The notes beneath the pieces were generated by a model. The model saw only the letters and a program-made list of their open reading frames with translations, made no database searches and was not told where the DNA came from. A stretch of DNA of 64,000 bases, from the NCBI RefSeq assembly GCF_001658005.1, contig NZ_CP015986.1:744001-808000 (forward strand), given 5' to 3'. This document shows positions 5,412 to 60,024 of this stretch, piece by piece. Source of the DNA: Sphingobium sp. EP60837 (GTDB taxonomy: Bacteria > Pseudomonadota > Alphaproteobacteria > Sphingomonadales > Sphingomonadaceae). The first letter of the stretch is position 1. Each line of letters opens with the position of its first letter. The position numbers and the translations under genes were made by a program.

Positions 5412-5486
5412 CGGGCCTCTGGTCGGGTGGATCAGAGCGGGCTAGGTCCGGCTGCACCCGCCGTCAAGGCATCAGAAGGGGTCGGA

Positions 5487-7139: not shown

Positions 7140-7171
7140 CCAGCAACAGCCGGAATGGGTTGGATTGCCGC

Positions 7172-8170
7172 TCAGATATTCTCCGCAAACCCATCGCGCA
7201 GCGCATGGACGCGATGCGGGGCGGAGACCTCCACTCGGCTGGTTACTTCATATTGCGCCTTCGCCTGGCGCACATTGCTGTCGGCAGGCACGCTGTCCGT
7301 CAGCCAGACATTGCCGCCGATCACCGAACGGCTGCCGATGATGATGCGCCCCAATATGGTCGCGCCAGCATAGATGACGACATCATCCTCGATGATCGGG
7401 TGGCGCGGCAGGGCCTTTGCCAGTGCGCCCTTCTCATCGGCGGGGAAGCTTCGCGCGCCCAGCGTGACGCCCTGATACAGCCGCACCCTGTTCCCGACGA
7501 TCGCCGTTTCGCCGATAACGACGCCCGTTCCATGATCGACGAAGAAGCTGTGACCGATCCTGGCGCCCGGATGAATGTCGATGCCGGTGCGAGAATGGGC
7601 GATTTCAGATGTGACCCGCGCCACCAAAGGCGCGCCGAGTCCATAAAGCTGATGGGCGAGACGATGATGGATGATAGCCAGCATCGACGGATAGCATATC
7701 AGCACTTCGTCAACGCTGCGCGCAGCCGGATCGCCGAGGAAAGCTGCTTCCACATCGGTATCAAGCAGTTCGCGCACGCTAGGCAGGCTGCTGGCGAAAG
7801 CGCCGATGATGCGGGCGGCTTCCGCATCGACCTCTGCTGGCTGACTGTCATGCATGGCGTAGAGCAGTTCGAGGCGGATCTGGCCGTAAAGGCGGCTGAG
7901 CGCCGTCTGCAAGGTCTGCGTGACGAAGGCGTCCTCATTATGGATGCGCACGAAGCTCGGCCCCAGCCGCAGGGGAAACAGCGCGCCGCAGAGCGACGTC
8001 ATGATCTTCGTCAGATTGGCCCGCGAAGGAAAGCCTTCCGCTCCATATTCCGCATGATGCTGCTGGGCCTCCCGCCACCGGCCACGGACCGCGCCCAGAT
8101 CGCTCACCAGGCGGCCGATATCCCAATAGCCTTCCAGAAGCTGATCTTCGCCTTCACCGTCTGCCGTCAT
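7172..8170 (-). CDS. Serine O-acetyltransferase (EpsC/CysE type)
   Basis: 332 residues. It makes O-acetylserine from serine and acetyl-CoA, the first step of cysteine synthesis. The N-terminal half is helical; the C-terminal half is a left-handed beta-helix of hexapeptide repeats, with the catalytic region IDIHPGARIGHSFFVDHGTG and the following VVIGETAIVGNRVRLYQGVT. The C-terminus lacks an obvious regulatory Ile tail like that of E. coli CysE. It faces the phosphatase gene (convergent, 32 bases apart). There are no other cysteine-synthesis genes in the window. Confidence 0.93.
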   Translation of the reverse strand: MTADGEGEDQLLEGYWDIGRLVSDLGAVRGRWREAQQHHAEYGAEGFPSRANLTKIMTSLCGALFPLRLGPSFVRIHNEDAFVTQTLQTALSRLYGQIRLELLYAMHDSQPAEVDAEAARIIGAFASSLPSVRELLDTDVEAAFLGDPAARSVDEVLICYPSMLAIIHHRLAHQLYGLGAPLVARVTSEIAHSRTGIDIHPGARIGHSFFVDHGTGVVIGETAIVGNRVRLYQGVTLGARSFPADEKGALAKALPRHPIIEDDVVIYAGATILGRIIIGSRSVIGGNVWLTDSVPADSNVRQAKAQYEVTSRVEVSAPHRVHALRDGFAENI

Positions 8171-8281
8171 ATGCGCCTCTTGTTCAACGGGAAACCGGCA
8201 TAGACCGGCTTGGCGCCATCCGATAAACGAGTTTTGCTTGGACCCTGACAGTTTCTCTTTTGTCGGGTGTGTGGTGGCGGA

Positions 8282-9613
8282 TCAGCGCTTTTCCGCTGCG
8301 GGCGGGATATGAAGGCGGATTTCCACGCGCAGACCGCCCTCCGGACGGTTAGTCAGGGTCAACGCCCCCTCTTCCTGCTCCACCGCCTTTGCCACGATGG
8401 CGAGGCCAAGGCCCAGCCCGCGCGTATTCCGCTGTCTTGCTTCATCCAGGCGGGCAAAGGGCTTCAGCACTTCCTGCAACTTGTCGTCAGGAATGCCGGG
8501 GCCGTCATCCTCGACACAGATCAGCACCTCCCCACTGCGCCGCTCCACGCTCACATCGGCGCGATGACCATAGTGCAGGGCATTTTCGACAAGGTTCATC
8601 ACCGCGCGGCGAAGCAGCATCGGACGGGCGTCCATTTCCAGATGATCGGGCCCTTCATAGGTGACGTCCGCGCCTTGGTCCTGAAAAGCATCGACGACTG
8701 TCGCCACCGTCACCGCCACGTCGGTGCGAACGACAGGCTCGCCATTTTTCTCGCCGACAAGAAAGGCCAGAAGGGAATCGATCATCGCACCCATTTCGGC
8801 CAAATCTCCCGCCATGGCCTCCTGCGCTTCGGCATCGCCGATCCCCTCCAGCCGCAATTGCAACCGGGCGAGCGGGGTTCGCAGGTCATGCCCCACCGCC
8901 GCCAGCGTCTCGGTGCGCTCCGTGATCAGGCGGTGGATACGCTTCTGCATCGCGTTGAATGCGCGGATCAGGTCTCGCACGTCGCTGGTGCCGCCTTCCG
9001 CGACAATCACCTCGTCGCTTAGGCCGATATGCTCGGTGGCCTTCGTCAGGTCCTTCAGCGGCGCGAGCGTCCGCCGGATCAGCATCCCACCCGCCAGCAT
9101 CAGCGCGACGACGGGGATGAGCGCTAGGCCCATGCGGCCGATGGTGAAGGTCCATTGACCTCCGCTATGCCGCATGCCGAAATAGAGCCAGCTCCTGTCC
9201 GGCAGCTGCAACCCGCCATTGATTTGCGATACGCGTCCGGGCGAAGCGAGCCGCAGCCACAGCCGTGACCGTTCCAGGCTGGGTTCCCAAGTAATGATCT
9301 GCCGACGCATCCGCTCTAGTTCGGGAGCCAGCGTAGGTGGCGGCGGCGATGCCGGGGTCCAGTGGACATCGTAGCGATCGGTGGTCAGCTGGATAGCCAT
9401 CGCATGCCGGTCGCCTGCGGGCTGCTCCGCCACGAGCTTGCGTGCGATGACGAGATGCTCGGCGAGCCGCCGCGCTTCGTCATCCTGCAAGGAGAGATGG
9501 CCCGCACGCTCATAGATCAGCGTGCCGACCGCAAATTCCAGGGTCAGCGCGAGCAGCAGGATCGCCAGCAGCCGGCCGACCAGACCCAGCGACCGGCTGA
9601 CATGCAATCTCAA
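8282..9613 (-). CDS. Sensor histidine kinase (EnvZ-like)
   Basis: 443 residues, inner membrane. There are two membrane segments (about 13-33 and 160-180) around a periplasmic sensor of about 125 residues rich in prolines near residue 90, a HAMP linker, then the phosphorylated histidine in GHDLRTPLARL (His242), and an HATPase domain with NLVENALHYG, DDGPGIP and RGLGLGLAIV. Its start overlaps the end of the response-regulator gene by four bases, so the pair is translationally coupled. The nearby TorF porin gene, transcribed the same way just upstream of the pair, is a plausible target, but this is inference. Confidence 0.93.
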   Translation of the reverse strand: MRLHVSRSLGLVGRLLAILLLALTLEFAVGTLIYERAGHLSLQDDEARRLAEHLVIARKLVAEQPAGDRHAMAIQLTTDRYDVHWTPASPPPPTLAPELERMRRQIITWEPSLERSRLWLRLASPGRVSQINGGLQLPDRSWLYFGMRHSGGQWTFTIGRMGLALIPVVALMLAGGMLIRRTLAPLKDLTKATEHIGLSDEVIVAEGGTSDVRDLIRAFNAMQKRIHRLITERTETLAAVGHDLRTPLARLQLRLEGIGDAEAQEAMAGDLAEMGAMIDSLLAFLVGEKNGEPVVRTDVAVTVATVVDAFQDQGADVTYEGPDHLEMDARPMLLRRAVMNLVENALHYGHRADVSVERRSGEVLICVEDDGPGIPDDKLQEVLKPFARLDEARQRNTRGLGLGLAIVAKAVEQEEGALTLTNRPEGGLRVEIRLHIPPAAEKR

Positions 9614-10320
9614 GCGCGGCTGACTTCTGCGTTGAACATGTAGCCGACGCCGCGCACCGTCGTGATCGGCGCTGACTTGCCCTCGGTCGAAAGCTTGCGG
9701 CGCAGGCGGCTCACCAGCACATCGATGCTGCGGTCGGAGCTGTCGCCCATGCGCGTGCGCGACAGTTCGATCAGCCGCTCGCGGGCGATGACGCGCTGCG
9801 GGTGGCTGAGGAAGGAGCCGAGCAGATCGAACTCCGCGCCGGTGAGGTCCACGATCGCGCCGGTGGGCGAACGCAGCTCACGGCGGGGAAAGTTGACGAT
9901 CCACCCGTCGAAGCGAGCCTCATTTTCCCGATGGTCGTCGGGCCCGCGCTCCACGCCGACACGACGCAGGATGGCGCGGATGCGGGCAATCAGTTCGCGC
10001 GTGCCGAAGGGCTTTGGGAGATAATCGTCGGCGCCCAGTTCCAGGCCGACGATCCGGTCGGTTTCGCTGCCCTTGGCGCTGATGAAGATGATCGGGACGT
10101 CGCTGTTGCGCCGGATCTGACGGCAAAGGTCGATGCCGTTGGTGCCAGGGAGCATGACGTCGAGTACGACAAGGTCAACCGGGCCAGCATCGAACGCGAC
10201 CCACATTTCCGGCCCCGATGAAGCGGGCCGGACCTGATAACCATGTTCCTGAAGCGCCCGCGCCGTCAGCGTGCGCAGCGGCGGGTCGTCCTCTACCAGG
10301 ATGATCGTGGGAGCGGTCAT
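9610..10320 (-). CDS. OmpR-family response regulator
   Basis: 236 residues. The receiver domain has the acidic pair in LVEDD, phospho-acceptor Asp54 (VVLDVMLPG), the switch serine in FISAKG and Lys in PKPF. The winged-helix DNA-binding domain ends with SIDVLVSRLRRKL and TVRGVGYMF. The ATG at 10320 is preferred over a TTG 18 bases upstream because it begins directly at the receiver beta-strand. It is the partner of the histidine kinase that follows with a four-base overlap. Confidence 0.93.
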   Translation of the reverse strand: MTAPTIILVEDDPPLRTLTARALQEHGYQVRPASSGPEMWVAFDAGPVDLVVLDVMLPGTNGIDLCRQIRRNSDVPIIFISAKGSETDRIVGLELGADDYLPKPFGTRELIARIRAILRRVGVERGPDDHRENEARFDGWIVNFPRRELRSPTGAIVDLTGAEFDLLGSFLSHPQRVIARERLIELSRTRMGDSSDRSIDVLVSRLRRKLSTEGKSAPITTVRGVGYMFNAEVSRA

Positions 10321-10477
10321 CCCAGCAATTTCACGCAACGAAAACAGCTCATGTGTCGCGGGATAAGGGGGGCTGATGGAAGGGTCAACCGGACGTTGCC
10401 ACAGAAACCCGTTGAAACCAGATCAGCAACAATTTGTCATGCGAGGGACAATCCGGGGCTCTCCCCAGCAAGATTGT

Positions 10478-10510
10478 CATGCCGGGCCCGGCGTAGCGAG
10501 GCCCGGCATG
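10478..10510. terminator. Inverted repeat between porin and regulator genes
   Basis: An 11-bp perfect stem (CATGCCGGGCC with GGCCCGGCATG) and an 11-base loop, placed seven bases after the TorF porin stop. There is no T-run, so it may be a dispersed REP-like hairpin acting as a weak terminator or a 3'-end stabiliser. Similar CATGCC-type hairpins occur elsewhere in the window. Confidence 0.5.
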
Positions 10511-10516
10511 ATCAAC

Positions 10517-11365
10517 TTAGAAAGCAGCCGTCAGAGAGAAGACCACCTGACCGCGCGCGATCGATTCACCGAAGTCATCGGCATCCTGAACCATGAAGTT
10601 CGGACGGATGTAGGTTTCGTCCGAACGCTTGATGTCGGTATCGACATAGGCGACGCCCAGGGTCAGCGGCGTGCCCGGGATCGCAACGTCCGCGCCCACC
10701 AGCCAGTCAAGATATTTGCCGGTCGGAGCGACCGAGGTGCCGTTCGGGCCAAGGCCGGGGTTGCCGTCCGAATAGCCCAGATGGGCCTTCAGCGAAACCG
10801 GGGTTCCAGGCACAGCGCCGCTCACATCGCCCCAGATATAAAGGTTATCTTCCTTATCGCCCGGACGATCAGGGATGCCGGTCGCATTGCTGGCTGCAGT
10901 GCTATACCAGTTGCCCAGAGCCTGCTGCTTGGGCGCATAGGCGACGCCGAGCAGACCCTTGACCGGACCGAATTCGCTCGACAGCTTCACATAGGGTTCG
11001 GCGAAGTCGGTCTTGTCCGCGCCCGACGGGTACATGTACCAGGTAAGGCCGACGTCCAGCGTCGCGCCGCCCAGCGGGATGGCGTAACCGGCGAACAGGT
11101 CGAGTTCCATGTTGGAGCCGCCGAACTGGCCCCAGCCAGCCAGGTTCGAAGCCCAGGTGCCCGCATAGAGGCCGCTTTCATGCGTGGCGGTGATGCCGCC
11201 CTGAATGGCCATGCCCTTGTCGGTCTGCGACACGCCGCGGAAACGGTAGTCGGAAACCAGCGCGACGCTGCCCGATACGGTGACGGGACCTTCGGCTTCT
11301 TCCTGAGCGAATGCCGGCGCGCTCGACATCAAGGCGAGGGCAGCACAGGCGATCTGATATTTCAT
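10517..11365 (-). CDS. TorF-family putative outer-membrane porin
   Basis: 282 residues. A signal peptide (MKYQIACAALALMSSAPAFA) is followed by an amphipathic beta-barrel sequence opening VSGSVALVSDYRFRGVSQTD, the hallmark of this family (TIGR02001 type), and ending in aromatic phenylalanine (FSLTAAF) as outer-membrane proteins do. The substrate is unknown. A purine-rich ribosome site lies just upstream. The 234 bases between this start and the SulP terminator hold no gene and presumably contain the promoter. A strong hairpin follows the stop codon. Confidence 0.88.
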   Translation of the reverse strand: MKYQIACAALALMSSAPAFAQEEAEGPVTVSGSVALVSDYRFRGVSQTDKGMAIQGGITATHESGLYAGTWASNLAGWGQFGGSNMELDLFAGYAIPLGGATLDVGLTWYMYPSGADKTDFAEPYVKLSSEFGPVKGLLGVAYAPKQQALGNWYSTAASNATGIPDRPGDKEDNLYIWGDVSGAVPGTPVSLKAHLGYSDGNPGLGPNGTSVAPTGKYLDWLVGADVAIPGTPLTLGVAYVDTDIKRSDETYIRPNFMVQDADDFGESIARGQVVFSLTAAF

Positions 11366-49380: not shown

Positions 49381-50736
49381 GTGCGTCACGCGTTGTGGAT
49401 TATCATGGCCGCCGCCAGCCTTTCGTCCGCCGCCACGGCGCAGACCGGAACTTCGTCCGTTCCGGCTGCTGCCCCTGCGTCCTCCAGCGAAATCGCCGCC
49501 ACCATCGCGCGCGACATGGATGGCATGATGGCGCTCTACCGCGATCTTCACGCCAATCCTGAATTATCAGAGCAGGAAAGCGCAACCGCCGCCAAGCTCG
49601 CCCGCCGGTTGAAGGCCCTGAAGTTCACCGTGACCGAAAAGGTCGGCGGCAACGGCGTGGTTGCCGTGATGAAAAATGGCGATGGGCCCGTCCTCCTCAT
49701 CCGCGCCGACATGGACGGCCTTCCCGTCACCGAAGAGACCCGCCTTCCCTTCGCGTCGAAGGTCCGCACCAAAACGGCGGGTGGCGTGGAAACCGACGTC
49801 ATGCACGCCTGCGGCCACGACACGCACATGACCGCCTTCATCGAAACCGCCCGCCTCCTCTCCTCGATGCAGGATCGGTGGCGGGGCACGCTCGTCATGA
49901 TCCTTCAGCCTGCGGAGGAAGTCGGCCGCGGGGCGCGCCTGATGCTGGAGGATGGCTTATACACGCGCTTTCCCCGCCCCACCCATGCGCTCGCCTTCCA
50001 CGACGCCGCTAATCTGGAGGCGGGCGTGATCGGCTACACGCCGGGTTACGCCCTCGCCAATGTCGATAGCGTGGACATAGTAGTGCGCGGCACCGGCGGC
50101 CATGGCGCCTATCCGCAGACCGCGAAGGACCCGATCGTGCTGGGCGCGCGTATCGTTGGCGCGCTGCAAACCCTGGTCAGCCGCGAACAGGACCCGCTCG
50201 ACCCTGCAGTGGTAACTGTCGGCAGCTTCGTTGCCGGGGCCAAGCACAATATCATCCCCGATGAGGCGAAGCTGCTGCTCACCGTCCGGAGCTATTCGGA
50301 CGAAACCCGCGAAAAGCTGATCCGGGGCATCGAACGCATCGCGCGGGGCGAGGCGATTGCCGCTGGCGTGCCTGACGATCGCATGCCCGTCATATCGGTG
50401 AAGGATGAATTCACCCCCGCCGCCTACAATCCGCCCGCTTTCGCCAACCAGATGGCCGCCCTTCTCACGACCCATTTCCCCGAAGGCCGGGTGGTTGAGG
50501 CCAAGCCCTCCATGGGCGGCGAAGACTTCGGCCGCTACTATCGGGCGGACAAGAGCATCAACAGCTTCATCTTCTGGGTCGGCGGCGTCCCGCCAGACCA
50601 GATGGCAAAAGCTGCCGCTGGCCAACTTACCCTGCCCTCACTTCACAGCCCCTTCTGGGCGCCTCAAGCGGACAAAGTCATAGCGACCGCCAGCGAAGCG
50701 ATGACGGTTTTGGCGCTGAATATATTGGAGCGGTAA
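49381..50736 (+). CDS. M20-family amidohydrolase (aminoacylase/IAA-amino acid hydrolase-like), exported
   Basis: 451 residues. It starts with GTG at 49381; the ribosome site GGGAG lies upstream. A signal peptide (MRHALWIIMAAASLSSAATA) directs it to the periplasm. Metal ligands and motifs: HANPELSEQE, IRADMDGLP, HACGHDTHMTAF, QPAEEVGRGARLM, and the dimerisation domain with GTGGHGAYPQTAKDP. It cleaves N-acyl or amino-acid conjugates. The next gene, a GNAT acetyltransferase, begins 21 bases after it. Confidence 0.92.
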   Translation: MRHALWIIMAAASLSSAATAQTGTSSVPAAAPASSSEIAATIARDMDGMMALYRDLHANPELSEQESATAAKLARRLKALKFTVTEKVGGNGVVAVMKNGDGPVLLIRADMDGLPVTEETRLPFASKVRTKTAGGVETDVMHACGHDTHMTAFIETARLLSSMQDRWRGTLVMILQPAEEVGRGARLMLEDGLYTRFPRPTHALAFHDAANLEAGVIGYTPGYALANVDSVDIVVRGTGGHGAYPQTAKDPIVLGARIVGALQTLVSREQDPLDPAVVTVGSFVAGAKHNIIPDEAKLLLTVRSYSDETREKLIRGIERIARGEAIAAGVPDDRMPVISVKDEFTPAAYNPPAFANQMAALLTTHFPEGRVVEAKPSMGGEDFGRYYRADKSINSFIFWVGGVPPDQMAKAAAGQLTLPSLHSPFWAPQADKVIATASEAMTVLALNILER

Positions 50737-50757
50737 TCAACGGCGGGGCAGATAGGG

Positions 50758-51330
50758 ATGCTGACGATACGCAAGGCCGTTGTGGAGGATGGCGCGACCC
50801 TCGCGGCGATCTATGCGCCCTATGTCTCGCAAACCGTGATCTCGTTCGAAACCGTGCCTCCTACCGCAGAAGAGTTCAGTGCCAGGATCGCCAATTGCCT
50901 CCCCGCCTACCCCTGGCTCATCGCCGAGATGGGCGGCCAGACGGTCGGCTATGCCTATGCAGGACCACATATTGGCCGCGCGGCCTATAATTGGTCGGCG
51001 GACATATCGGTCTATCTCGCTGCCGATCATCACCGCCAGGGCATCGGCCGAAATTTGTACGACGCCTTGATCGCTCTATTGCGTCATCAGGGCTATCATG
51101 CGCTGTTCGCAGGCATAACCCTGCCCAACGAGGCGAGCGTCGCCATCCATAGCGCTATCGGCATGCGGGAAGTCGGCATTTATCGGGAAGTCGGTTTCAA
51201 ATTCGGCCAGTGGCATGATGTGATGTGGATGGGCATGACCATCTCACCGCCCGCTCGACCCACGGCTCCGCCCACGCCCTTCTCGGCGCTGGCCAACATT
51301 CAGGACATCGTTCCCCATCTGGCCGGTTAA
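50758..51330 (+). CDS. GNAT-family N-acetyltransferase (phosphinothricin acetyltransferase-like)
   Basis: 190 residues. It shows the phosphinothricin/methionine-sulfone type layout: IRKAVVEDGATLAAIYAPYV, the helix SFETVPPTAEEF, acetyl-CoA loop HHRQGIGRNLYDAL and ITLPNEASVAIHSAIGMREVG. The C-terminal tail after residue 163 is proline-rich and not part of the domain. It probably acetylates small amines or amino-acid analogues. Confidence 0.88.
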   Translation: MLTIRKAVVEDGATLAAIYAPYVSQTVISFETVPPTAEEFSARIANCLPAYPWLIAEMGGQTVGYAYAGPHIGRAAYNWSADISVYLAADHHRQGIGRNLYDALIALLRHQGYHALFAGITLPNEASVAIHSAIGMREVGIYREVGFKFGQWHDVMWMGMTISPPARPTAPPTPFSALANIQDIVPHLAG

Positions 51331-51399
51331 GGTGCTTCCGTTTGCCCTGAGCTTGTCGCGGGGGTGCTCACCAACCCCGCCTTAAGGCCCGGCACCATC

Positions 51400-52386
51400 C
51401 TAAACCGGCCGGTGCCCCTTGCGCCATTTCGTCACTAGATGCCGCGCCAGCATCATCGGCGGCATCCGCAGCCAGTGCGAGCGCACATAGAAGGCAAAGC
51501 GCAGCAGCTTGCGCGTCTCGCGCCCCCACCCATCCCGAGCGAGCAACCGCCACATCACCACATGATCCCAAAGCGTCAGCCGCTCACCCCGCTCGCGACC
51601 ATAAAGCACCGCCGCCAGCCGCCGCGCCTGCGCAACATGGCGGCTGATCCCATGCCGCTCCGCCCGCTCTTCCAGCCGCCCCAGGTCCGCCTTCTCCAAG
51701 AGGCAATGGATATCCCACAGGTTCCGCAAGCCGCCCGCCATATCCCCATCCGCGAGCAGATGCGCGACCGAATGGCAGACCATGTCCTCGGGCGACAAAA
51801 TAGATAATCGTTCTGTTATCGAAACGGAATCGGCCAACATCGCCTCGGCATCGGGGCTCTGCCGCGCCGTCAGCGGCAGGATCGTATGATGCACATCGAT
51901 CATCCGGTCCCGCTCCCGATGGATCATCGGCGGCAGTTCATGCATCCACTGCCGGTAATAGGCATCGTCATAGGCATCCTCCTTTACCCATTCCCAGCCC
52001 GCCGCCTTCAATCTTTCCTCTATTTCATTCATCATTTCGCGGGGCGCCAGGATATCAAGGTCGCCAATGAACCGCCCCTCGCCCGCCGTCAGCCCCGCCG
52101 CAACATATGCGGTCCCTTTGAGCAACAGCACCGGCGCACCCAGCGCTTCGGCGGCTCGGTCAGCCTCCCACAATGCCTGCCGCGCTTCCCGCTCCGCATC
52201 CAGCCGCGCATCCGCCAGTATCGGCCGGACCGCTTGGGGTGCCTGCGCCGCATCAACCCTCACCGCCAGCGTTCCGATCAAGCGCTCCGCCCGCGCCGCC
52301 GCGATCAGCGCATTCCACGCCGTCGCATCCAGCCTGGCCACCGTTACAGGCTCCCGCAAAGCGCGCACCAGCGCCGCCCCGCTCAT
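51400..52386 (-). CDS. Nucleotidyltransferase family protein of HPr-rel-A-like cassette
   Basis: 328 residues. It resembles the NTP_transf_5 family: LLLKGTAYVAAGL (Lys90) and FIGDLDILAP with Asp109 and Asp111 as probable metal ligands, and VHHTILPL further on. The C-terminal part is helical and basic. Such proteins accompany PqqD-like and HprK-related proteins in an uncharacterised sphingomonad system and in lasso-peptide-like clusters. The start overlaps the kinase stop by four bases. It may transfer a nucleotide or sugar-nucleotide moiety to the product; this is unproven. Confidence 0.85.
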   Translation of the reverse strand: MSGAALVRALREPVTVARLDATAWNALIAAARAERLIGTLAVRVDAAQAPQAVRPILADARLDAEREARQALWEADRAAEALGAPVLLLKGTAYVAAGLTAGEGRFIGDLDILAPREMMNEIEERLKAAGWEWVKEDAYDDAYYRQWMHELPPMIHRERDRMIDVHHTILPLTARQSPDAEAMLADSVSITERLSILSPEDMVCHSVAHLLADGDMAGGLRNLWDIHCLLEKADLGRLEERAERHGISRHVAQARRLAAVLYGRERGERLTLWDHVVMWRLLARDGWGRETRKLLRFAFYVRSHWLRMPPMMLARHLVTKWRKGHRPV

Positions 52387-53246
52387 GCAAGCTCCTCCCA
52401 AAGCCGTTCGACCATGGCGATCGCCGCATCCCCGGAAGGAAAATCGATCGCCCGCGCCGGAACGCCCTGTACGAAGCGAGTGAGTGCGCCAAAGCCCGCC
52501 TCTCCCAGCGCGACATAATTGGTGGACGCTTGAGTCAGCCGCATGAAGACTTCCCCCTGCCCGACCGGCCGCACGTCCGCGCCATGACCAAAACGGGGAA
52601 ACAGCAGCAGCGCAGGCTGCGCCCCTTCCCCCATCCGCCCCACCGCATCTGCGCGTGGCACGAGATGGCGTATGTCTCCCTTCGCCGTTCCGCCAAGCAA
52701 CGGCCCCATCCGCTTGTCAGGCGCCTCTGCCGCGATCACCCTGATCGCGCCATTCTTCAGCGATACAAGGCGGGGGAAAGGAAACACTGCCCCGCTAACA
52801 AGGTCCAGCAAGGCAAACTCGTCACCCATCAGCCGCCAGCCCCGCTCGCCCAATTGCGCCGCCAGAGTCGATTTGCCGGAACCCGATTCGCCGGTCATCA
52901 CCAGCGCGCGTCCGTCCTTCTCAACGCTCGACGCATGCAGCAGCAGATGCCGCCGCCACCCCAACGCCATCTGCAGGTTCATGCCCATCTCCGCCGCCAG
53001 CAGGCCATGGGCCAGGCTCATGGGCGCGGCATCGGCCAGGCCATGGTCGCCAGTGATGAAGATCGAAGGCCGCACCCACCGCCGCAGCAGGCTCGTCGGC
53101 TCCAGACGAACGGTAAAATCAGCCACATCGCCATCGACCTGGGGATAATCGTCATAAAGCGCCGCCAACAGCTCAACCGGCTGCCGCCAGGCGGAGCCGA
53201 TGCGGAAGGACGCAGGCCCGATCTTCAGGGAAAGCTGATGCCTCAT
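52383..53246 (-). CDS. HprK-related kinase A
   Basis: 287 residues. The P-loop MTGESGSGKST (Gly119 to Thr127) follows a LLLHASSVEKDG strand, as in HPr kinase, and GDEFALLD (Asp142) is a probable metal or base-catalysis site. The HPr-binding region of true HprK is missing and no HPr or PTS genes are present, so the protein probably phosphorylates something else. It matches the family I know as HprK-related kinase A (TIGR04352 class). Four-base overlaps with the genes on both sides show strict co-expression. Confidence 0.85.
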   Translation of the reverse strand: MRHQLSLKIGPASFRIGSAWRQPVELLAALYDDYPQVDGDVADFTVRLEPTSLLRRWVRPSIFITGDHGLADAAPMSLAHGLLAAEMGMNLQMALGWRRHLLLHASSVEKDGRALVMTGESGSGKSTLAAQLGERGWRLMGDEFALLDLVSGAVFPFPRLVSLKNGAIRVIAAEAPDKRMGPLLGGTAKGDIRHLVPRADAVGRMGEGAQPALLLFPRFGHGADVRPVGQGEVFMRLTQASTNYVALGEAGFGALTRFVQGVPARAIDFPSGDAAIAMVERLWEELA

Positions 53247-53527
53247 GCGCGCCGCACAACACCAAGGGCCGTCAGTCCGGCCAGATGCGCTTCGATCTCT
53301 GCAATCGCCTGCTCCGGTTCGCCCAGGTCATAGCGCCGCTCCAGCCGCGCATGCACCTGCGCAGCCGTTACGGGGGAGTCATCCTCGCCCAGCGCGTCCA
53401 ATATCTCGGGAACCGGGCTGATCACCATATGCGTCTGCCCCGACGACCGATGGTAGAGGAGCGTGATATCCTCCAGCACGCACAAGGCGGCGTTGCTGTC
53501 CTGATGATAACGGCGCTCTGCGGTCAC
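53243..53527 (-). CDS. PqqD-family peptide chaperone of HPr-rel-A-like cassette
   Basis: 94 residues from GTG at 53527 (the ribosome site GGGCAGG lies upstream). The PqqD winged-helix fold is suggested by LEDITLLYHRSSGQTHMVIS, PEILDALGEDDSPVTAAQVH and LGVVRRA at the end. PqqD-like proteins bind the leader of ribosomal peptides and hand them to modifying enzymes. Its stop overlaps the kinase start by four bases. It belongs to the group named 'HPr-rel-A system PqqD family peptide chaperone'. Confidence 0.82.
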   Translation of the reverse strand: MTAERRYHQDSNAALCVLEDITLLYHRSSGQTHMVISPVPEILDALGEDDSPVTAAQVHARLERRYDLGEPEQAIAEIEAHLAGLTALGVVRRA

Positions 53528-53586
53528 GACCTGCCCTTAAACTATCTGGCGTCGCTCCGCTGTAGCGCGAAGGAGTAAGCAGGTGC

Positions 53587-54021
53587 CTAACGCGGCATTT
53601 GCAACGATGCGTAGCAGGTAAAGCCGCTCGTACCCGACTGGAGCCGCCGAATATAATTCAGATAGGCCTGATTCTGTTCGTAGCTTGTGCCGGGCAGCCG
53701 CCCGCCGCGCAGCGCTTGCTTGACCTGCTCACCAGTATAGCTGCGGCCTTGGGCCGGGAATGCCCCTGCCGTCCCCGCAGGAACCAGCTGTCCATTAGGC
53801 GCGACATAATTGCCCGCCCGGCCCTGATCCGGCACGGGAATGGTGCAGTTGAGAACGGACGCCGCCGTATTGGCCAGCGCGGGGCGAATGGACACGATCG
53901 CCGAAGCAGCGACGGCTCCACCCATCAGCAACTGGCGACGCGAGGGCGCGCCACCATAGTCTTCCCCCGCACCAGCAGCGGCGGGATCGGAAACATGCGG
54001 TTCTGGCAATTGCTCGCTCAT
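53587..54021 (-). CDS. Tat-signal protein, first gene of the HPr-rel-A-like cassette and candidate substrate
   Basis: 144 residues, not recognised. A twin-arginine signal at residues 27-50 (SRRQLLMGGAVAAS, then IRPALA) is preceded by an unusual acidic leader of 26 residues (MSEQLPEPHVSD, GAGEDYGG). The mature part has exactly two cysteines, Cys59 (LNCTIP) and Cys136 (GFTCYAS), and a proline/glycine-rich middle. It lies 59 bases upstream of the PqqD gene on the same strand. The long pre-signal leader and the adjacent leader-binding protein make it a candidate substrate; it could also be a plain exported protein. Confidence 0.7.
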   Translation of the reverse strand: MSEQLPEPHVSDPAAAGAGEDYGGAPSRRQLLMGGAVAASAIVSIRPALANTAASVLNCTIPVPDQGRAGNYVAPNGQLVPAGTAGAFPAQGRSYTGEQVKQALRGGRLPGTSYEQNQAYLNYIRRLQSGTSGFTCYASLQMPR

Positions 54022-54110
54022 ATCCTCTTGATCCGCTATCGCCCTTGCCAAAGCGTAAAGAATCCACGCTATTGCGCCAGCCATCGCAGCAAAGCGGCCA
54101 ATAATCCAGC

Positions 54111-55373
54111 ATGGTAACCATGAATCGACTGACCATTTCCCAAATCACCGCTTCGCTTGCCGTGCTGTTTCTGGCGACCGGAAGCGCGTTGCTGACAGGC
54201 GCAACCGTCTGGGCGATCGCCCTGCCTGTCCTCGCGGGACTGGCGATCCTCCTGATCACCTCGCAGGGGCCAGCGCCCAAGCCAAGCACGCCTTCGCCTG
54301 CTGAGGAGAGCGCGGACATCGTTGTCCACCCCGACTTTGCCGACCTGCTGGAGGGCATAGCCGATCCACTGATGCTGATCGAGCGCGGGCGGATCATCCG
54401 CGCCAACCGAGCCGCCCAACGGCTGCTCGGCGCGCATATCGAAGGGGAAGACGCACGCATCGCCATCCGCCACCCCGCCGCCGCCGAACGATTGGCGAGC
54501 CTCGCCCCAATGGCGGAGCCGGTGATGCTGGAGCTGGTGGGCCTGGGCACCCGCGATCAGCGTTGGCAGATGCGGATCGCGCCGGTGGGGAGCGACGGCT
54601 CCATTCGCCGCCTCGTCCACCTCGCCGATCATAGCGGCGCACATGCCGCCGAAAAAATGCGGGTCGATTTCGTCGCCAATGCCAGCCACGAACTGCGCAC
54701 ACCACTCGCCGGGATATTGGGCTTTATCGAAACGCTGGCCGACCCCGATCTCGGCCGCGACAACGAAACGCGCCAGCGCTTCCTGAAGATCATGGATGGG
54801 GAAGCGCGCCGGATGCAGCGACTGATCGACGACCTCATCTCCCTATCCCGCATCGAGGCGGAGAAATATCGTGTCCCCGACAGCCCGGTCGATCTGTCCG
54901 GGCTGGTGGCAGAAGTCGTCGGCGTGTTCCGCACCAGCCATGGCGATCGCGGCCGCGAGGTGGAAATGGAGATCGATCCCGCGCTCCCCTCGGTGGCCGG
55001 CGACCGGGCGCAGTTGTCGCAACTGCTCCACAATCTGATCGGCAACTCCGTCAAATATGGCAAGGCTGGCACGCCGATCCGCGTCAGCCTGACTGAAGGG
55101 CCAAGCGGCATGACCCGGCTCTGCGTCGCCGATGAAGGTGAAGGCATCGGACCGGATCACCTGCCGCGGCTGACGGAGCGCTTCTACCGCGTGGATTCGG
55201 GCCGCAGCCGCGCGATCGGGGGCACCGGACTCGGCTTAGCGATCGTCAAGCATATCGTGGAACGGCATCGCGGCCGGCTCGACATTGCCAGCATCTTGGG
55301 CAAGGGCACCAGCATCACCGTCCTGCTGCCGCCGATGGCCCCTGAAGAAAAAGTCGCCACATCAAAGCATTGA
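54111..55373 (+). CDS. phoR: Phosphate regulon sensor histidine kinase PhoR
   Basis: 420 residues. One N-terminal membrane hairpin (about 10-50), a PAS domain (about 75-180, with IADPLMLIERGRIIRANRAA), then the phosphorylated histidine in ASHELRTPLAG (His193) and the ATP-binding domain with NLIGNSVKYG, DEGEGIGPDHL and GGTGLGLAIVKH. It faces away from the cassette on its left and is followed by the pst operon and PhoB, so it senses phosphate through PstSCAB-PhoU. ATG at 54111 or 54120. Confidence 0.94.
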   Translation: MVTMNRLTISQITASLAVLFLATGSALLTGATVWAIALPVLAGLAILLITSQGPAPKPSTPSPAEESADIVVHPDFADLLEGIADPLMLIERGRIIRANRAAQRLLGAHIEGEDARIAIRHPAAAERLASLAPMAEPVMLELVGLGTRDQRWQMRIAPVGSDGSIRRLVHLADHSGAHAAEKMRVDFVANASHELRTPLAGILGFIETLADPDLGRDNETRQRFLKIMDGEARRMQRLIDDLISLSRIEAEKYRVPDSPVDLSGLVAEVVGVFRTSHGDRGREVEMEIDPALPSVAGDRAQLSQLLHNLIGNSVKYGKAGTPIRVSLTEGPSGMTRLCVADEGEGIGPDHLPRLTERFYRVDSGRSRAIGGTGLGLAIVKHIVERHRGRLDIASILGKGTSITVLLPPMAPEEKVATSKH

Positions 55374-55411
55374 CCAAAAATTTCCGCCTGCAGCCATGGC
55401 TCCAGGCCGCT

Positions 55412-55440
55412 ATGTCATAAAAGTGCAATTGGACTGTCAC
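55412..55440 (+). promoter_or_regulatory. Pho box: three 7-bp direct repeats at 11-bp period
   Basis: ATGTCAT, GTGCAAT and CTGTCAC are spaced by four bases each (AAAA, TGGA). The first and third match the PhoB half-site CTGTCAT closely; the 11-base period places them on one face of the helix. It lies 87 bases before pstS, so PhoB-phosphate should activate pstSCAB-phoU-phoB. The middle repeat is weak. Confidence 0.75.
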
Positions 55441-55526
55441 AAAGGCGCGATGTACCGCGGCTACGGCGCGTGCCCAGAGGGGGGCGGCGACTGCGAATCG
55501 CGGCCTTTTGACAAAGGAGATTACCC

Positions 55527-56585
55527 GTGAAGCATTTCGCCTTGCTCGCCGCGACCGCCGCGGCCGCACTCACGCTCGCCGGCTGCGGCGATCAGTCCTC
55601 TGGTGGCGGCGCTGGCGGCACCCGTGACCAGATCCGGGCGGTTGGCTCATCCACCGTCTATCCGTTCGCCACGGCGATCGCGGAGATGTTTGTGCAGGGC
55701 AATCCCGGCATGAAATCCCCAATCATCGAATCGACTGGCACCGGCGGCGGCATGAAGCTCTTTTGTGCGGGCGTTGGCGCTCAATATCCCGATATCGAGA
55801 ACGCCTCACGCCGCATCAAGAAGTCGGAGTTCGAGGACTGCCAGAAGAATGGCGTCAAGGACATCATCGAAATCCAGGTCGGCGTCGATGGCCTTGCCTT
55901 CGCCGAGGCGAAGAACGGCCCCGGCCTGAAGCTGACGCCCAAGATCGTCTATGAAGCGCTGGCCGCCAACCCCTATGGCAAGGGCCCGAACAAGGCAGAG
56001 ACTTGGAAGGATGTGGACCCCAGCCTGCCCGCCACGCCGATCAGCGTGTTCGGCCCGCCGTCCACCAGCGGCACCCGCGATTCCTTGGCCGAGTTGATCC
56101 TGACGAAGGGCTGCGAAACCGATCCGGCCATGAAGGCGCTCAAGGAAAAGAGCGAGGACGAGTTCAAGGCCACCTGCACCCGCGTTCGCGAAGATGGCAA
56201 ATATGTGGACTCGGGCGAGAATGACAATTTGATCGTCCAGAAGCTGGGCGCTAATCCCAACGCGCTCGGCGTCTTCGGATACAGCTTCCTGGAAGAGAAT
56301 AAGGACACGCTGAAGGACGTCACGATCAACGGCGTCGAAGCGACCTACGAAACCGTCTCCACCGGCAAATATCCCGGCGCGCGCGCGCTCTACATCTATG
56401 TGAAAAAGGCGCACATGACAGCGATCCCGGGTCTTCAGGCGTTCCTCAACACCTTCGCTTCCAACTGGAATCCCGATGGCGCGCTCACCAAGCGGGGCAT
56501 GGTCGCTGCGCCGGACGATGTTCGCAAGGCGAGCGCCGAAACGGTCAAGTCGCTTGCCGTTCTCGACGGTTCGCAGCTGAAATAA
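55527..56585 (+). CDS. pstS: Phosphate ABC transporter substrate-binding lipoprotein PstS
   Basis: 352 residues. A lipoprotein signal with LAGC (Cys20 in LTLAGCGDQS) anchors it to the inner membrane. Phosphate-binding motifs: AVGSSTVYPFATAIAEMF, TGTGGGMKLFC and PSTSGTRDSLAEL. It is of the larger alphaproteobacterial type. AAAGGAG precedes the start. It heads the pst operon downstream of the Pho box. Confidence 0.95.
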   Translation: MKHFALLAATAAAALTLAGCGDQSSGGGAGGTRDQIRAVGSSTVYPFATAIAEMFVQGNPGMKSPIIESTGTGGGMKLFCAGVGAQYPDIENASRRIKKSEFEDCQKNGVKDIIEIQVGVDGLAFAEAKNGPGLKLTPKIVYEALAANPYGKGPNKAETWKDVDPSLPATPISVFGPPSTSGTRDSLAELILTKGCETDPAMKALKEKSEDEFKATCTRVREDGKYVDSGENDNLIVQKLGANPNALGVFGYSFLEENKDTLKDVTINGVEATYETVSTGKYPGARALYIYVKKAHMTAIPGLQAFLNTFASNWNPDGALTKRGMVAAPDDVRKASAETVKSLAVLDGSQLK

Positions 56586-56594
56586 GAAAGACAG

Positions 56595-57989
56595 ATGACA
56601 GGTCCTGCAATCCTCCTGCTGCTGGCGGGCCTTGGCGCAATCGCCTGGGTCAGCGCCCGCGCCCGCGCGCTGCGGCTACAAACCGGAGCCCGGGCGTCCG
56701 GCCGCCGCGACGCCGTGCATAGCCTGCCAGGCTATCATGGCTGGTATGTCGCGCTGTGGACACTGATCCCGGCCGCCATTTTCCTGGCGGTCTGGGCGAA
56801 TGTCGCCCCCGGCCTCATTACCCAGGATGTGCTGAGCAGCCCGGCGGCGCAGAGCCTGCCCACCGATGATTTCTCGCGCTCCGCCATTCTGGGCGAGGCG
56901 CGGGCGATCGCGACGGGCAAGCAGGCTGGGGCGTTCAACCCGCTCTCGCAGGGCCTTGTTGATCCTTATAAAGCCGCCACCGGCAAATATGGCATGGCGG
57001 GCGCGGCCCTCGCGCTGGTCCTCGCCTTTGCCGGTGGCGCTTACGCCTTCACTCGGGTCCGTCCAGACTTTCGCGCCCGCACGCGGGTCGAGCGGCTCGT
57101 CATGGCGATGCTGCTGATCGCCTCGCTGCTCGCGATCATCACTACGCTCGGCATCGTCGCCTCGCTGCTGTGGGAAAGCTTCCGCTTCTTCTCGATGGTG
57201 AACCCCATCGACTTCCTCTTCGGCACCAAATGGAGCCCGCAATCCGCCGCCATGGGCTATGGCAATGAGGATGCGTTCGGTGCCGTACCGCTCTTCTGGG
57301 GCACGATCTTCATCGGCGCGATCATCGCCATGATCGTCGCCATCCCGCTGGGCCTCATGAGCGCCATCTACCTCACCCAATATGCGCAGCCGCGTGTACG
57401 CAAATGGATGAAGCCCATCCTTGAGGTGCTCGCGGGCGTACCAACGGTGGTCTATGGCTATTTCGCCGCGCTCACCATCGCGCCAGCCCTGCGCGACTTC
57501 GCCGTCGCCATCGGCATCCACAGCGCGAGTTCCGAAAGCGCGCTGGCCGCCGGTCTCGTCATGGGCGTGATGATCATCCCCTTCGTCTCCTCAATGGCCG
57601 ACGACAGCATCGCCGCCGTGCCGCAGTCCATGCGCGACGGCAGCCTCGCCATGGGCGCAACCACCAGCGAGACCATTCGCAAAGTCCTCATCCCCGCCGC
57701 CCTGCCCGGCGTCGTCGGTGGCGTCCTGCTGGCCGTCAGCCGCGCCATCGGCGAGACGATGATCGTGGTGATGGCTGCGGGCCTGTCCGCCAACCTCACC
57801 TTAAACCCCTTCGCCAGCGTGACGACGGTCACGACCCAGATCGTCCAGCTACTGACCGGCGACCAGGAATTCGACAGCGCCAAGACGCTTGCCGCCTTCG
57901 CGCTCGGCCTCGTCCTGTTCATCGTCACCCTGCTGCTCAACATCGTGGCCCTGCGGGTCGTGAAGAAATATCGCGAGGCTTACGAATGA
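56595..57989 (+). CDS. pstC: Phosphate ABC transporter permease PstC
   Basis: 464 residues, longer than E. coli PstC (about 320), with an N-terminal extension of about 130 residues containing two membrane helices, as in other alphaproteobacteria. The transport domain begins near residue 165 and carries [18 protein letters not shown] and the coupling helix [19 protein letters not shown]. It overlaps pstA by four bases. Confidence 0.93.
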
Positions 57990-59230
57990 CCGCCACCCGC
58001 ACCCCCACCGACTGGAAGTCGGACGCGATGCGCAAGCGGATCGCCCGGCGCTACGCCGCCGAGCGCCGCTTCAAGCTGGCCGGTCTCTTTGCCGTACTGC
58101 TCTCCGCCGCATTCCTGGCCTTCCTGCTCTTCACGATGCTGGGCAACGGCCTGCGCGGTTTTACTCGCACAGAGATCGCGGTGAAGATCGACTTCCCTGC
58201 CTCTCCGCTGCTGCTCGATCCCGACGCCATCACCGATCAGTCGCTCGCCAACGCGAACCTGCCGATGGTGACGGGCGAGACGGTAAAGAAGGCGCTGGGC
58301 GCGGACGCAGAGGAATGGGTTTCCTCCACCGCCTGGACCGTCCTGCGCGACAGGATCAAGGCGGACCCCAAGATCCTCTCGCGCACCGAAACGATCGCGC
58401 TGCCCGCTTCCACAGCGATCGACCTTGCCGCCAAGAGCAACGCGTCGCCGGAGGCCGAAGCTGCCGTGGATCGCCTCAACAAGGCTGGCCTGCTCTCCAC
58501 CGGGATCAACTGGAACTTCCTGTCCGCCAGCGACGGCACCGATCCGACCCAAGTCGGCATCTGGGGCGCGTTCAAGGGTTCGCTGCTGACGATGCTCGTC
58601 ACCCTGGCGCTCAGCTTCCCGATCGGTGTCGCGACCGCGCTCTATCTGGAAGAATATGCCCGCAAGAACTGGCTGACCGACATCATCGAAGTGTCGATCA
58701 ACAATCTTGCCGCCGTTCCCTCGATCATCTTCGGCCTGCTGGGGCTATCGATCTTCCTCAACTTCCTGCACCTGCCGCGCTCTGCGGCGCTGGTCGGCGG
58801 CATGACGCTGGCGCTGATGACCATGCCCGTGATCGTCATCGCCGGACGCAACGCCATCAAGTCGGTGCCGCCCAGTATTCGCGACGCTGCGCTCGGCATC
58901 GGCGCTTCGCCGGTTCAGGTCGTATTTCACCACGTCCTTCCCCTCGCCCTGCCCGGCATTCTCACCGGCACCATCATCGGCATGGCGCGCGCGCTCGGGG
59001 AGACGGCTCCGCTGCTCATGATCGGCATGCGCGCCTTCATCGCCACGCCGCCGGGCGGCATCACCGATCCTGCGACCGTCCTCCCCGTCCAGATCTTCCT
59101 CTGGTCGGACGAAGTCTCCAAGGGCTTCGTCGAAAAGACCTCCGCCGCCATCATCGTCCTGCTGGTGTTCCTGCTCGCGATGAACGGCCTCGCCATCTAC
59201 CTGCGCAACAAGTTCGAAAAACGGTGGTAA
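57986..59230 (+). CDS. pstA: Phosphate ABC transporter permease PstA
   Basis: 414 residues. After one membrane helix there is a periplasmic insertion of about 140 residues (58,150-58,560) not seen in the short form, then the permease domain with [16 protein letters not shown] and the coupling loop [20 protein letters not shown]. It is the partner of PstC. Both permeases carry extra periplasmic segments, a trait of this lineage. Confidence 0.93.
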
Positions 59231-59232
59231 AT

Positions 59233-60024
59233 ATGATGCACGAACCACAAACCCTGGTGCCTGCCACCGAAACCAAGATGACCGCGCGCGATGTAAAGGT
59301 CTTCTATGGCGAGAAACAGGCGATCAAGGGCGTCTCCATCGACGTCGATATGGACAATGTCACCGCCTTCATCGGCCCGTCGGGCTGCGGAAAGTCGACC
59401 TTCCTGCGCACATTGAACCGCATGAACGACACCGTGGCGAGCGCCCGCACCGAAGGCACGATCACGCTCGACGGCGAGGATATCTACGCCCCCAGCATGG
59501 ACGTGGTGCAACTGCGCGCCCGTGTCGGCATGGTGTTTCAAAAGCCCAATCCGTTCCCCAAGTCGATCTACGAAAATATCGCCTACGGCCCGCGCATCCA
59601 CGGCCTGGCCCATGGCAAGGCAGACCTCGACGTCATCGTCGAAAAGTCGCTCCGCCGCGCTGGTCTCTGGGACGAAGTGAAGGATCGCCTCCACGACAGC
59701 GGCACCGCGCTTTCGGGCGGCCAGCAGCAGCGCCTTTGCATCGGCCGCGCGATCGCGGTCGAGCCCGAAGTCATCCTGATGGACGAGCCCTGCTCAGCGC
59801 TCGACCCAATCGCAACGGCCAAGATCGAGGAACTGATCCACGAACTGCGCGGCCGCTACGCGATCGTCATCGTCACCCACAATATGCAGCAGGCCGCCCG
59901 CGTGTCGCAGCGCACGGCCTTTTTCCACCTGGGCGAACTGGTCGAATATGGCGTGACGTCGGACATCTTCACCAATCCGAAGCAGGAACGGACCAAGGAC
60001 TACATCACCGGACGCTACGGCTGA
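59233..60024 (+). CDS. pstB: Phosphate ABC transporter ATP-binding protein PstB
   Basis: 263 residues, cytoplasmic. Walker A is GPSGCGKST, the Q-loop is in [13 protein letters not shown], the signature is [14 protein letters not shown], Walker [14 protein letters not shown] and the H-loop VTHNMQQA. It powers phosphate import. Start at ATG 59233, with a second ATG three bases later; it begins two bases after the pstA stop. Confidence 0.96.

Follow-up and report, generated by a model that had tools for sequence, protein, structure and literature searches.

We analyzed a 64,000-nucleotide stretch of the genome of Sphingobium sp. EP60837 (contig NZ_CP015986.1, positions 744,001 to 808,000; hereafter the window), in which a minus-strand cassette encodes, in order, a small protein with a twin-arginine translocation (Tat) leader, a PqqD-like protein, an HprK-related kinase and a nucleotidyltransferase (NTase) of the NTP_transf_5 family (Table 1). 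This widespread, uncharacterised operon appears to make, phosphorylate and probably further tag a small protein before export. The preliminary description of this DNA had proposed the gene order, the overlaps among the last three genes and the HPr-rel-A label, and all of these are borne out by the open reading frames (ORFs), their coordinates and profile searches. Overlaps of 4 bases join the PqqD-like gene to the kinase gene and the kinase gene to the NTase gene, and 59 bases separate the end of the Tat gene from the PqqD-like gene. The ATG of the Tat gene at 54021 is preceded by a ribosome-site-like AAGAGGA (by eye), with a further in-frame ATG at 54084. With TIGR04352 and TIGR04353 both over cut-off in adjacent genes, the cassette is an HPr-rel-A system, for which a search limited to open-licence literature found no published substrate or function. 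The second gene product, expected to be PqqD-like, thus matches the PqqD model of that system; against Pfam PqqD it stays under the cut-off (E 0.024). Comparison with six related loci gives the Tat gene a dN/dS of 0.08-0.16 and its three partner genes values of 0.13-0.60, ratios that are rough because dS (0.69-1.84) is often near or above 1.

Table 1. Features of the HPr-rel-A cassette, in coordinates of the window
Feature	Position	Strand	Basis
Tat-leader protein, 144 aa, candidate substrate (class 1)	53587..54021	-	No family cut-off reached (NCBIfam, Pfam)
PqqD-like protein, 94 aa, proposed leader-binding RiPP recognition element (RRE)	53243..53527	-	TIGR04353 61.6 bits, cut-off 35
HprK-related kinase A, 287 aa	52383..53246	-	TIGR04352 234 bits, cut-off 200
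NTP_transf_5 protein, 328 aa, proposed phosphate-elaborating transferase	51400..52386	-	PF14907 163.8 bits, gathering cut-off 31.2
Leader of Tat protein, residues 27-52	53866..53943	-	pN comparison, twin-Arg columns of alignment
Ser55, alternative candidate acceptor, 4 residues before Cys59	53857..53859	-	Ser in 101/105 class-1 rows
C-terminal motif T135-C136-Y137-A138-S139-L140, with Ser139 as proposed phospho-acceptor	53602..53619	-	Alignment and motif scan
Kinase P-loop, residues 119-127	52866..52892	-	Aligns with HPr kinase GDSGVGKS
D109-x-D111 of the transferase	52054..52062	-	Invariant in 149/149 aligned proteins

Across 119 genomes of the window's family (Sphingomonadaceae), TIGR04352 is over its cut-off in 38, and the Tat protein is present in 37 of these and in none of the 81 kinase-negative genomes (Fisher 4e-30, with the kinship of genomes ignored). 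The sole kinase-positive family genome lacking a first-pass match (G099) yielded its Tat protein to an iterated profile. In 36 of these 38 genomes the genes keep the single-strand order Tat-PqqD-HprK-NTase, with broken frames in one case (L111), and in the other two (G040 and G042) the loci are split with all four genes still present. This conservation, which extends across the phylum sample and the named genomes described below, shows that the gene set is no chance assembly of a single genome, a possibility that the preliminary description had raised. At three loci, two from Sphingopyxis (L183, L190) and one from a Sphingomonadaceae bacterium (L194), the Tat gene lies elsewhere in the genome rather than beside the cassette; retention though unlinked, here as in G040 and G042, argues for function rather than hitch-hiking. 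Assembly error or decay has left all three of the Tat, kinase and transferase genes of L111 (genome G007) with broken frames.

The association holds at greater distance. In a sample of 398 genomes of the phylum, TIGR04352 is over its cut-off in 61 and TIGR04353 in 52 (49 with both). A profile of the class of Tat proteins to which that of the window belongs (class 1; profile A4) matches 58 of the 398 genomes, with a single match in 55 of the 58, and is found in 50/61 kinase-positive versus 8/337 other genomes; the eight matches lacking TIGR04352 are all weak (E 8.8e-5 to 8.8e-4). Ten of the 11 kinase-positive genomes without A4 carry a different twin-Arg protein beside the kinase, and in the eleventh (G302) the kinase is cut by the contig end. 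Among the best 80 of 177 loci in a scan of named genomes, we found representatives from Sphingobium, Sphingomonas, Massilia, Duganella, Thiobacillus, Gallionella, Methylomonas and Thioalkalivibrio.

A profile of the second main class of Tat proteins, run on upstream frames, drifted across both classes via their shared leader, and its matches are scored here as a leader gene, not as class 2. Such a gene lies upstream on the same strand in 146 of the 159 loci whose kinase scores above 250 bits (two pooled collections, in which one pair at least, L115/L186, is duplicated); in 134 of the 146 it is no more than 150 bases away or the frames overlap. The remaining 13 loci comprise four with a leader gene at the locus (L197, L211, L135 and L160), two with leader genes on the far side of the cassette (two at L230, one at L246), one whose leader gene is cut by the end of the stretch (L089), one at a contig edge (L224) and five with a leader gene elsewhere in the genome (L073, L100, L183, L190 and L194). 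Profile A4 has no match in the genomes of L211, L230 and L246. At L230 both leader genes lie downstream of the NTase gene (5689-7107).

In a control over the frames of the cassette loci (whole genomes being covered by A4 alone), the leader profile matches 161 of 16,619 frames, 153 of them among the 1,270 upstream frames, and the other eight all fall in cassette loci previously counted as misses or split. Every match lies in a locus with a kinase or PqqD-like match, the weak one at L169 being beside a divergent kinase. We considered generic Tat similarity as the source of the matches and rejected it, given that A4 usually has one match per genome and that leader matches occur only at kinase or PqqD-like loci. 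The identification of the Tat protein as the dedicated substrate of the system, as which it behaves in these comparisons, is therefore strongly supported at the level of sequence. No family cut-off is reached by any of nine substrate proteins (that of the window, two more of class 1, four of class 2 and one each of classes 3 and 4, described below) in scans with NCBIfam and Pfam, one class-1 protein being scanned with Pfam only and the class-3 protein with NCBIfam only. The names given among the best 120 of 2,210 class-1 relatives, and among the best 120 of the 276 found for a single class-2 protein, read hypothetical, uncharacterised or putative protein.

The leaders follow the pattern RRxLLKG..A..PAIxTLxSGxALA and stand at the head of substrate frames that are mostly 130-290 aa long. 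The second Arg is found in 103/105 class-1 and 48/48 class-2 alignment rows, and the first in 83/105 and 47/48, respectively. Twin Arg, a hydrophobic stretch and AxA are all present, as is TatC in the genome, from which export by the Tat pathway is predicted. In comparisons with the related loci L173-L176, leader residues 27-52 are nearly frozen (nonsynonymous differences per site, pN, 0.00-0.02; synonymous, pS, 0.39-0.52), as against a pN of 0.31-0.48 for residues 1-26. With the more distant L177 and L178, the leader (pN 0.15/0.18) is about as conserved as the mature part (0.19/0.18), and the lowest values are those of the C-terminal 30 residues (0.07/0.05). The pattern is compatible with a leader that is read by a partner. 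A lipoprotein reading of the first mature Cys was tried and rejected, a lipobox being present in none of 103 class-1 and 48 class-2 leaders. A profile of the Tat protein against PDB gave no convincing relative (best E 0.07).

The mature part falls into two main classes, which track the kinase tree. In class 1 (105 aligned rows, window numbering) Ser55 is present in 101 and Cys59, Cys136 and Ser139 in all, the last two counts being partly circular in that class 1 is defined by its C-terminal motif (104/153 proteins). A less circular measure comes from class-1 proteins found by a profile built on whole proteins, with only matches above 50 bits counted: [ST]C[YFWLI]xS[LFIVM] occurs in the last 40 residues of 77/78 of these versus 11/13,210 other frames, the sole exception being the broken L111. 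Between the motif Ser and the C-terminus the distance is 1-16 residues, most commonly 6. The class-2 label (49/153) denotes only the absence of this motif and includes L117 and L169; the class alignments omit L169 and L120 and take in L101 and L089. In class-2 proteins the first mature Cys is followed by two near-invariant Ser residues (46/48 and 47/48), and 47/48 have an aromatic residue at an SPGYW-like site. On a tree of 158 kinases (98 class 1, 47 class 2 and 13 unlabelled) the class label needs 2 changes, versus a mean of 39.7 for shuffled labels, with 0/500 shuffles as low as 2; the odd row is L117. As the shuffles test clustering only, they establish a linkage of lineages, not contact.

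A third class is represented in four genomes that have weak A4 matches (G153, G181, G258 and G289): the matching twin-Arg protein is short and Cys-rich, and an HprK-like gene of divergent sequence lies some 2 kb away. Loci L269-L272, from small genomes of one family, carry short Cys-rich proteins with the same sort of twin-Arg leader (GSCxPSACxPC) at that distance from a divergent HprK-like gene, and three of the four have a weak NTase match. The genome of the window itself harbors a second, divergent cassette outside the window (L286, G000 C1:1285000-1298000, at 5051-11215), comprising a 100-aa twin-Arg Gly-rich protein, a PqqD-like/HprK fusion (385 aa, the PqqD-like part recognized by eye), an NTP_transf_5 protein, an HlyD protein and a C39-domain ABC transporter. 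By eye, and with a loose pattern that admits many chance frames, a comparable small twin-Arg protein also lies near the kinase in L294, L295, L296, L297, L302 and L304 of 18 further loci. On a tentative reading, at least four seemingly unrelated mature parts may share one leader: the CxxS-tailed class 1, the SPGYW-type class 2, the Cys-rich class 3 and the Gly-rich class 4 beside type I secretion.

The enzymes of the cassette retain their predicted catalytic residues. In the kinase, H104, K125, D142 and E143 are conserved in 158/158 aligned proteins; in HPr kinase, to which this enzyme is distantly akin (PDB 1jb1, E 4e-4), they correspond to the His, the P-loop Lys and the Asp-Asp pair. According to a review, lasso-peptide kinases need a His-Lys-Asp-Asp set (PMC9266682). 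In the NTase, K90, R105, D109, D111, D164 and H166 are conserved in 149/149 aligned proteins, and its profile has no convincing relative in PDB (best E 0.93). We take D109-x-D111 to be an active site of the nucleotidyltransferase type. The PqqD-like profile retrieves lasso-peptide B1 proteins from PDB (TfuB1, E 0.0011; TbiB1, 0.16), with two chains bearing design-type names ranking higher on a 30-residue stretch.

Through the analysis of gene neighborhoods, with families defined as homology clusters and named by eye from window genes, we found two kinds of context. In the window, phoR-, pstS-, pst-permease- and pstB-like genes (by eye) stand back to back with the cassette (54111-60024), and among 72 family loci a PhoR-like histidine kinase gene is so placed in 61, with PstS-like and Pst-permease-like genes in 51 and 55. 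The window PhoR scores 293 bits, under its cut-off of 334; the kept PhoR-like neighbor makes a link to phosphate possible. Outside the family, the cassette often adjoins XrtA exopolysaccharide genes. By counts from homology clusters, one representative of each being scored against the XrtA/PEP-CTERM models, 18 of 41 class-1 loci outside the family have a TIGR03087-type glycosyltransferase and 18 have a TIGR03108-type amidotransferase, and 49 class-2 loci feature TIGR02917-type genes in 16, TIGR03027-type in 10 and TIGR03007-type in 10. Within the family, XrtA is over its cut-off in 34/38 kinase-positive versus 42/81 other genomes, and in the phylum sample in 25/61 versus 10/337; all ten phylum genomes with only a non-class-1 protein have XrtA. 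A GT4-type glycosyltransferase gene sits between the Tat and PqqD genes (about 6480-7650) in all three Sphingobium relatives examined (L173, L174 and L176); the window has 59 bases at this position and its genome has six matches to that enzyme, at 29-38% identity.

Other neighbors include a TPR-sulfotransferase gene (L121, 10813-12513), whose cluster recurs, at about 1.9 kb downstream of the PqqD gene, in 11/41 class-1 loci beyond the family, and a Trypsin/HtrA-like protease gene (L114, 11146-11967), whose cluster is near 19/49 class-2 cassettes. The immediate flanks of the window cassette (49381-55373) hold amidohydrolase, GNAT and PhoR-like genes; the GNAT gene (50758-51330) scores 216 bits with NF040504 (ArsN1 family B arsinothricin N-acetyltransferase; cut-off 210).

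Published systems provide precedents for the chemistry. The linear polyphosphorylated peptides (LPP) of Bacillota, a family of ribosomally synthesised and post-translationally modified peptides (RiPPs), pair a leader-bearing precursor with an HprK-like kinase, an NTP transferase and an RRE; the precursor is phosphorylated on Ser, the kinase adding up to four phosphates at Ser3 of the core (PMC13381572). Two reviews describe HprK-like kinases of lasso-peptide systems, including one from Sphingobium yanoikuyae, that phosphorylate the precursor at its C-terminal Ser; PsmN then attaches one or two hexoses to this phosphate (PMC8498205, PMC9266682).

Taking the observed gene set, its order and co-occurrence, the match between substrate classes and kinase tree, the conservation of catalytic and candidate acceptor residues and the genomic context together with what these enzyme families and phospho-RiPP relatives suggest of the reaction, we propose, at a probability of about 0.6, that the genes of the operon form a single biosynthetic unit whose product is a modified exported protein. 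The first of them would supply the substrate, a small protein with a conserved twin-Arg leader, which the PqqD-like protein would bind as an RRE. The kinase would then phosphorylate a conserved Ser, either Ser139 or else Ser55 beside the first mature Cys; the two are about equally likely, with Ser139 slightly ahead for class 1. The NTP_transf_5 protein would next place a hexose or nucleotidyl group on the phosphate, and the Tat pathway would export the product, a route that suits cytoplasmic modification preceding export. From its context, the product may act at the cell surface with XrtA-type exopolysaccharide. The leader-guided phosphorylation or nucleotidylation of an exported protein put forward in the preliminary description thus gains support from the behavior of the Tat protein as a dedicated substrate, the reaction itself being the predicted part; the division into classes along the kinase tree, the CxxS motif at the C-terminus, the XrtA exopolysaccharide link and the phospho-RiPP precedents had gone unseen in it.

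Several observations weigh against this proposal. Class-2 proteins are without the C-terminal Ser motif, so Ser139 is not a universal site; a Ser between 6 residues before and 11 after the first Cys is found in 101/103 class-1 and 47/48 class-2 proteins, a count to be read in the light of Ser being common and the interval wide. The [YW]xxP motif by which lasso and LPP precursors bind their RRE occurs in only 2/103 class-1 and 1/48 class-2 leader regions, and contact between PqqD-like protein and leader would therefore need another motif; further, the extra conservation of the leader is limited to near relatives. Six loci of the phylum sample (L273-L278) have the kinase, NTase and twin-Arg protein with no PqqD-like profile match, a 62-92 aa frame of unknown kin occupying the PqqD position. 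The Fisher tests of co-occurrence ignore kinship, and XrtA is absent at its cut-off from 36/61 kinase-positive genomes of the phylum sample. No leader peptidase or dedicated exporter adjoins the window cassette, relatives not having been searched with such models. Finally, deletion of the LPP NTP transferase gave no detectable change in a heterologous host (PMC13381572).

Among the alternatives, the best placed, which we nevertheless regard as unlikely, retains the Tat protein as the acceptor and has the kinase-transferase pair attach a nucleotide or nucleotide-linked cofactor instead of a sugar. CitX/MdcG-type carrier loading offers a parallel for such an attachment, Tat substrates often carry cofactors, and NTP_transf_5 is of the nucleotidyltransferase type both by name and by its conserved K90-G91, D109-x-D111 and D164. 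Against this, glycosyltransferase and polysaccharide genes are frequent neighbors, and the sole published activity that we found for a kinase-associated member is hexose addition (PMC9266682, PMC8498205). Somewhat less likely still, the kinase and transferase might act on a small molecule or polysaccharide precursor, with the Tat protein as a binding partner, sensor or delivery factor. The exopolysaccharide association would suit such a role, and modification of a peptide is for this cassette a prediction; yet the PqqD-type protein, the leader common to otherwise different proteins, the kinase clades that track the class, and the lasso and LPP precedents all point to a peptide substrate.

A cyclised lasso-like RiPP cluster whose cyclase has been lost or moved would account for the RRE-like, HprK-like and NTase genes shared with paeninodin and pseudomycoidin clusters, and is very improbable: the preliminary description had noted the absence of an McjB-like protease and an asparagine-synthetase-like cyclase, and indeed neither a B2 protease nor a macrolactam synthetase adjoins the window cassette (49381-55373), the substrate frames are of the length given above, and the one asparagine-synthase-like neighbor scanned, in L153, is by score the XrtA amidotransferase, with 831 bits against a cut-off of 817, while the lasso cyclase model gives it 257 against 525. 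Regulation of the phosphotransferase system (PTS), with HPr as the substrate, has in its favor the distant kinship with HPr kinase and is the least credible reading, in that the window kinase, as had been anticipated, is no true HPr kinase (TIGR00679 21.9 bits only, cut-off 240) and elsewhere in the genome a distinct short gene resembling that of HPr kinase neighbors HPr-like and EIIA-like ORFs. The earlier claim that PTS genes are absent consequently stands within the window and fails genome-wide: that short gene (TIGR00679 84 bits, cut-off 240) lies about 92 kb away and is followed by ORFs that resemble RapZ, an EIIA and HPr (by eye).

Returning to the proposed modification of an exported substrate, the analysis gives the HPr-rel-A system a concrete substrate family, two candidate Ser residues and a biological setting in XrtA exopolysaccharide, and suggests that a Tat signal peptide may double as a modification leader. 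On a more tentative note, one could envisage a superfamily of signal-peptide-guided phospho(glyco)proteins in Pseudomonadota, in which the Tat signal serves as both export signal and PqqD-read leader for at least four mature parts, a phosphate-linked sugar is added in the cytoplasm and the product is exported as an anchor or primer for XrtA-type exopolysaccharide; this is possible, and we would sooner doubt than assume it.

With the HPr-rel-A system as defined, the window cassette shares the TIGR04352 kinase and TIGR04353 PqqD families; the present analysis adds the twin-Arg substrate gene with its classes. The Tat export chaperones (redox enzyme maturation proteins, REMPs) offer a partial likeness, in that a small protein would bind the Tat signal before export; to our knowledge, the PqqD-like protein belongs to no REMP family. 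The phospho-lasso systems of paeninodin, SyanA and pseudomycoidin are alike in an HprK-like kinase acting on a C-terminal Ser, a nucleotidyltransferase-like protein and a PqqD-like B1, and unlike in that the window cassette has no macrolactam synthetase or B2 protease alongside and its substrate is a twin-Arg protein. LPP differs in its YxxP leader and its occurrence in Bacillota, as opposed to the Tat-type leader, Pseudomonadota and XrtA-type polysaccharide genes of the present system, and no SpI-like peptidase or MsbA-like exporter lies beside the window cassette; the words Proteobacteria, Pseudomonadota, twin-arginine, exosortase and PEP-CTERM are absent from the main text of PMC13381572. 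The cassette is placed with neither LPP nor lasso peptides, since the searches for the leader motif, the peptidase or the cyclase of those systems came out negative. The likenesses to LPP are a discrete RRE-like protein, an HprK-like kinase, an NTP transferase, a precursor with a conserved N-terminus and variable C-terminus, and polysaccharide-locus neighbors, LPP and paeninodin loci often accompanying capsular polysaccharide loci (PMC13381572). By this analogy the cassette probably works like a phospho-RiPP module, tying the phospho-RiPP chemistry known from Bacillota to a large group of Pseudomonadota proteins that are exported, with surface polysaccharide genes often near both.

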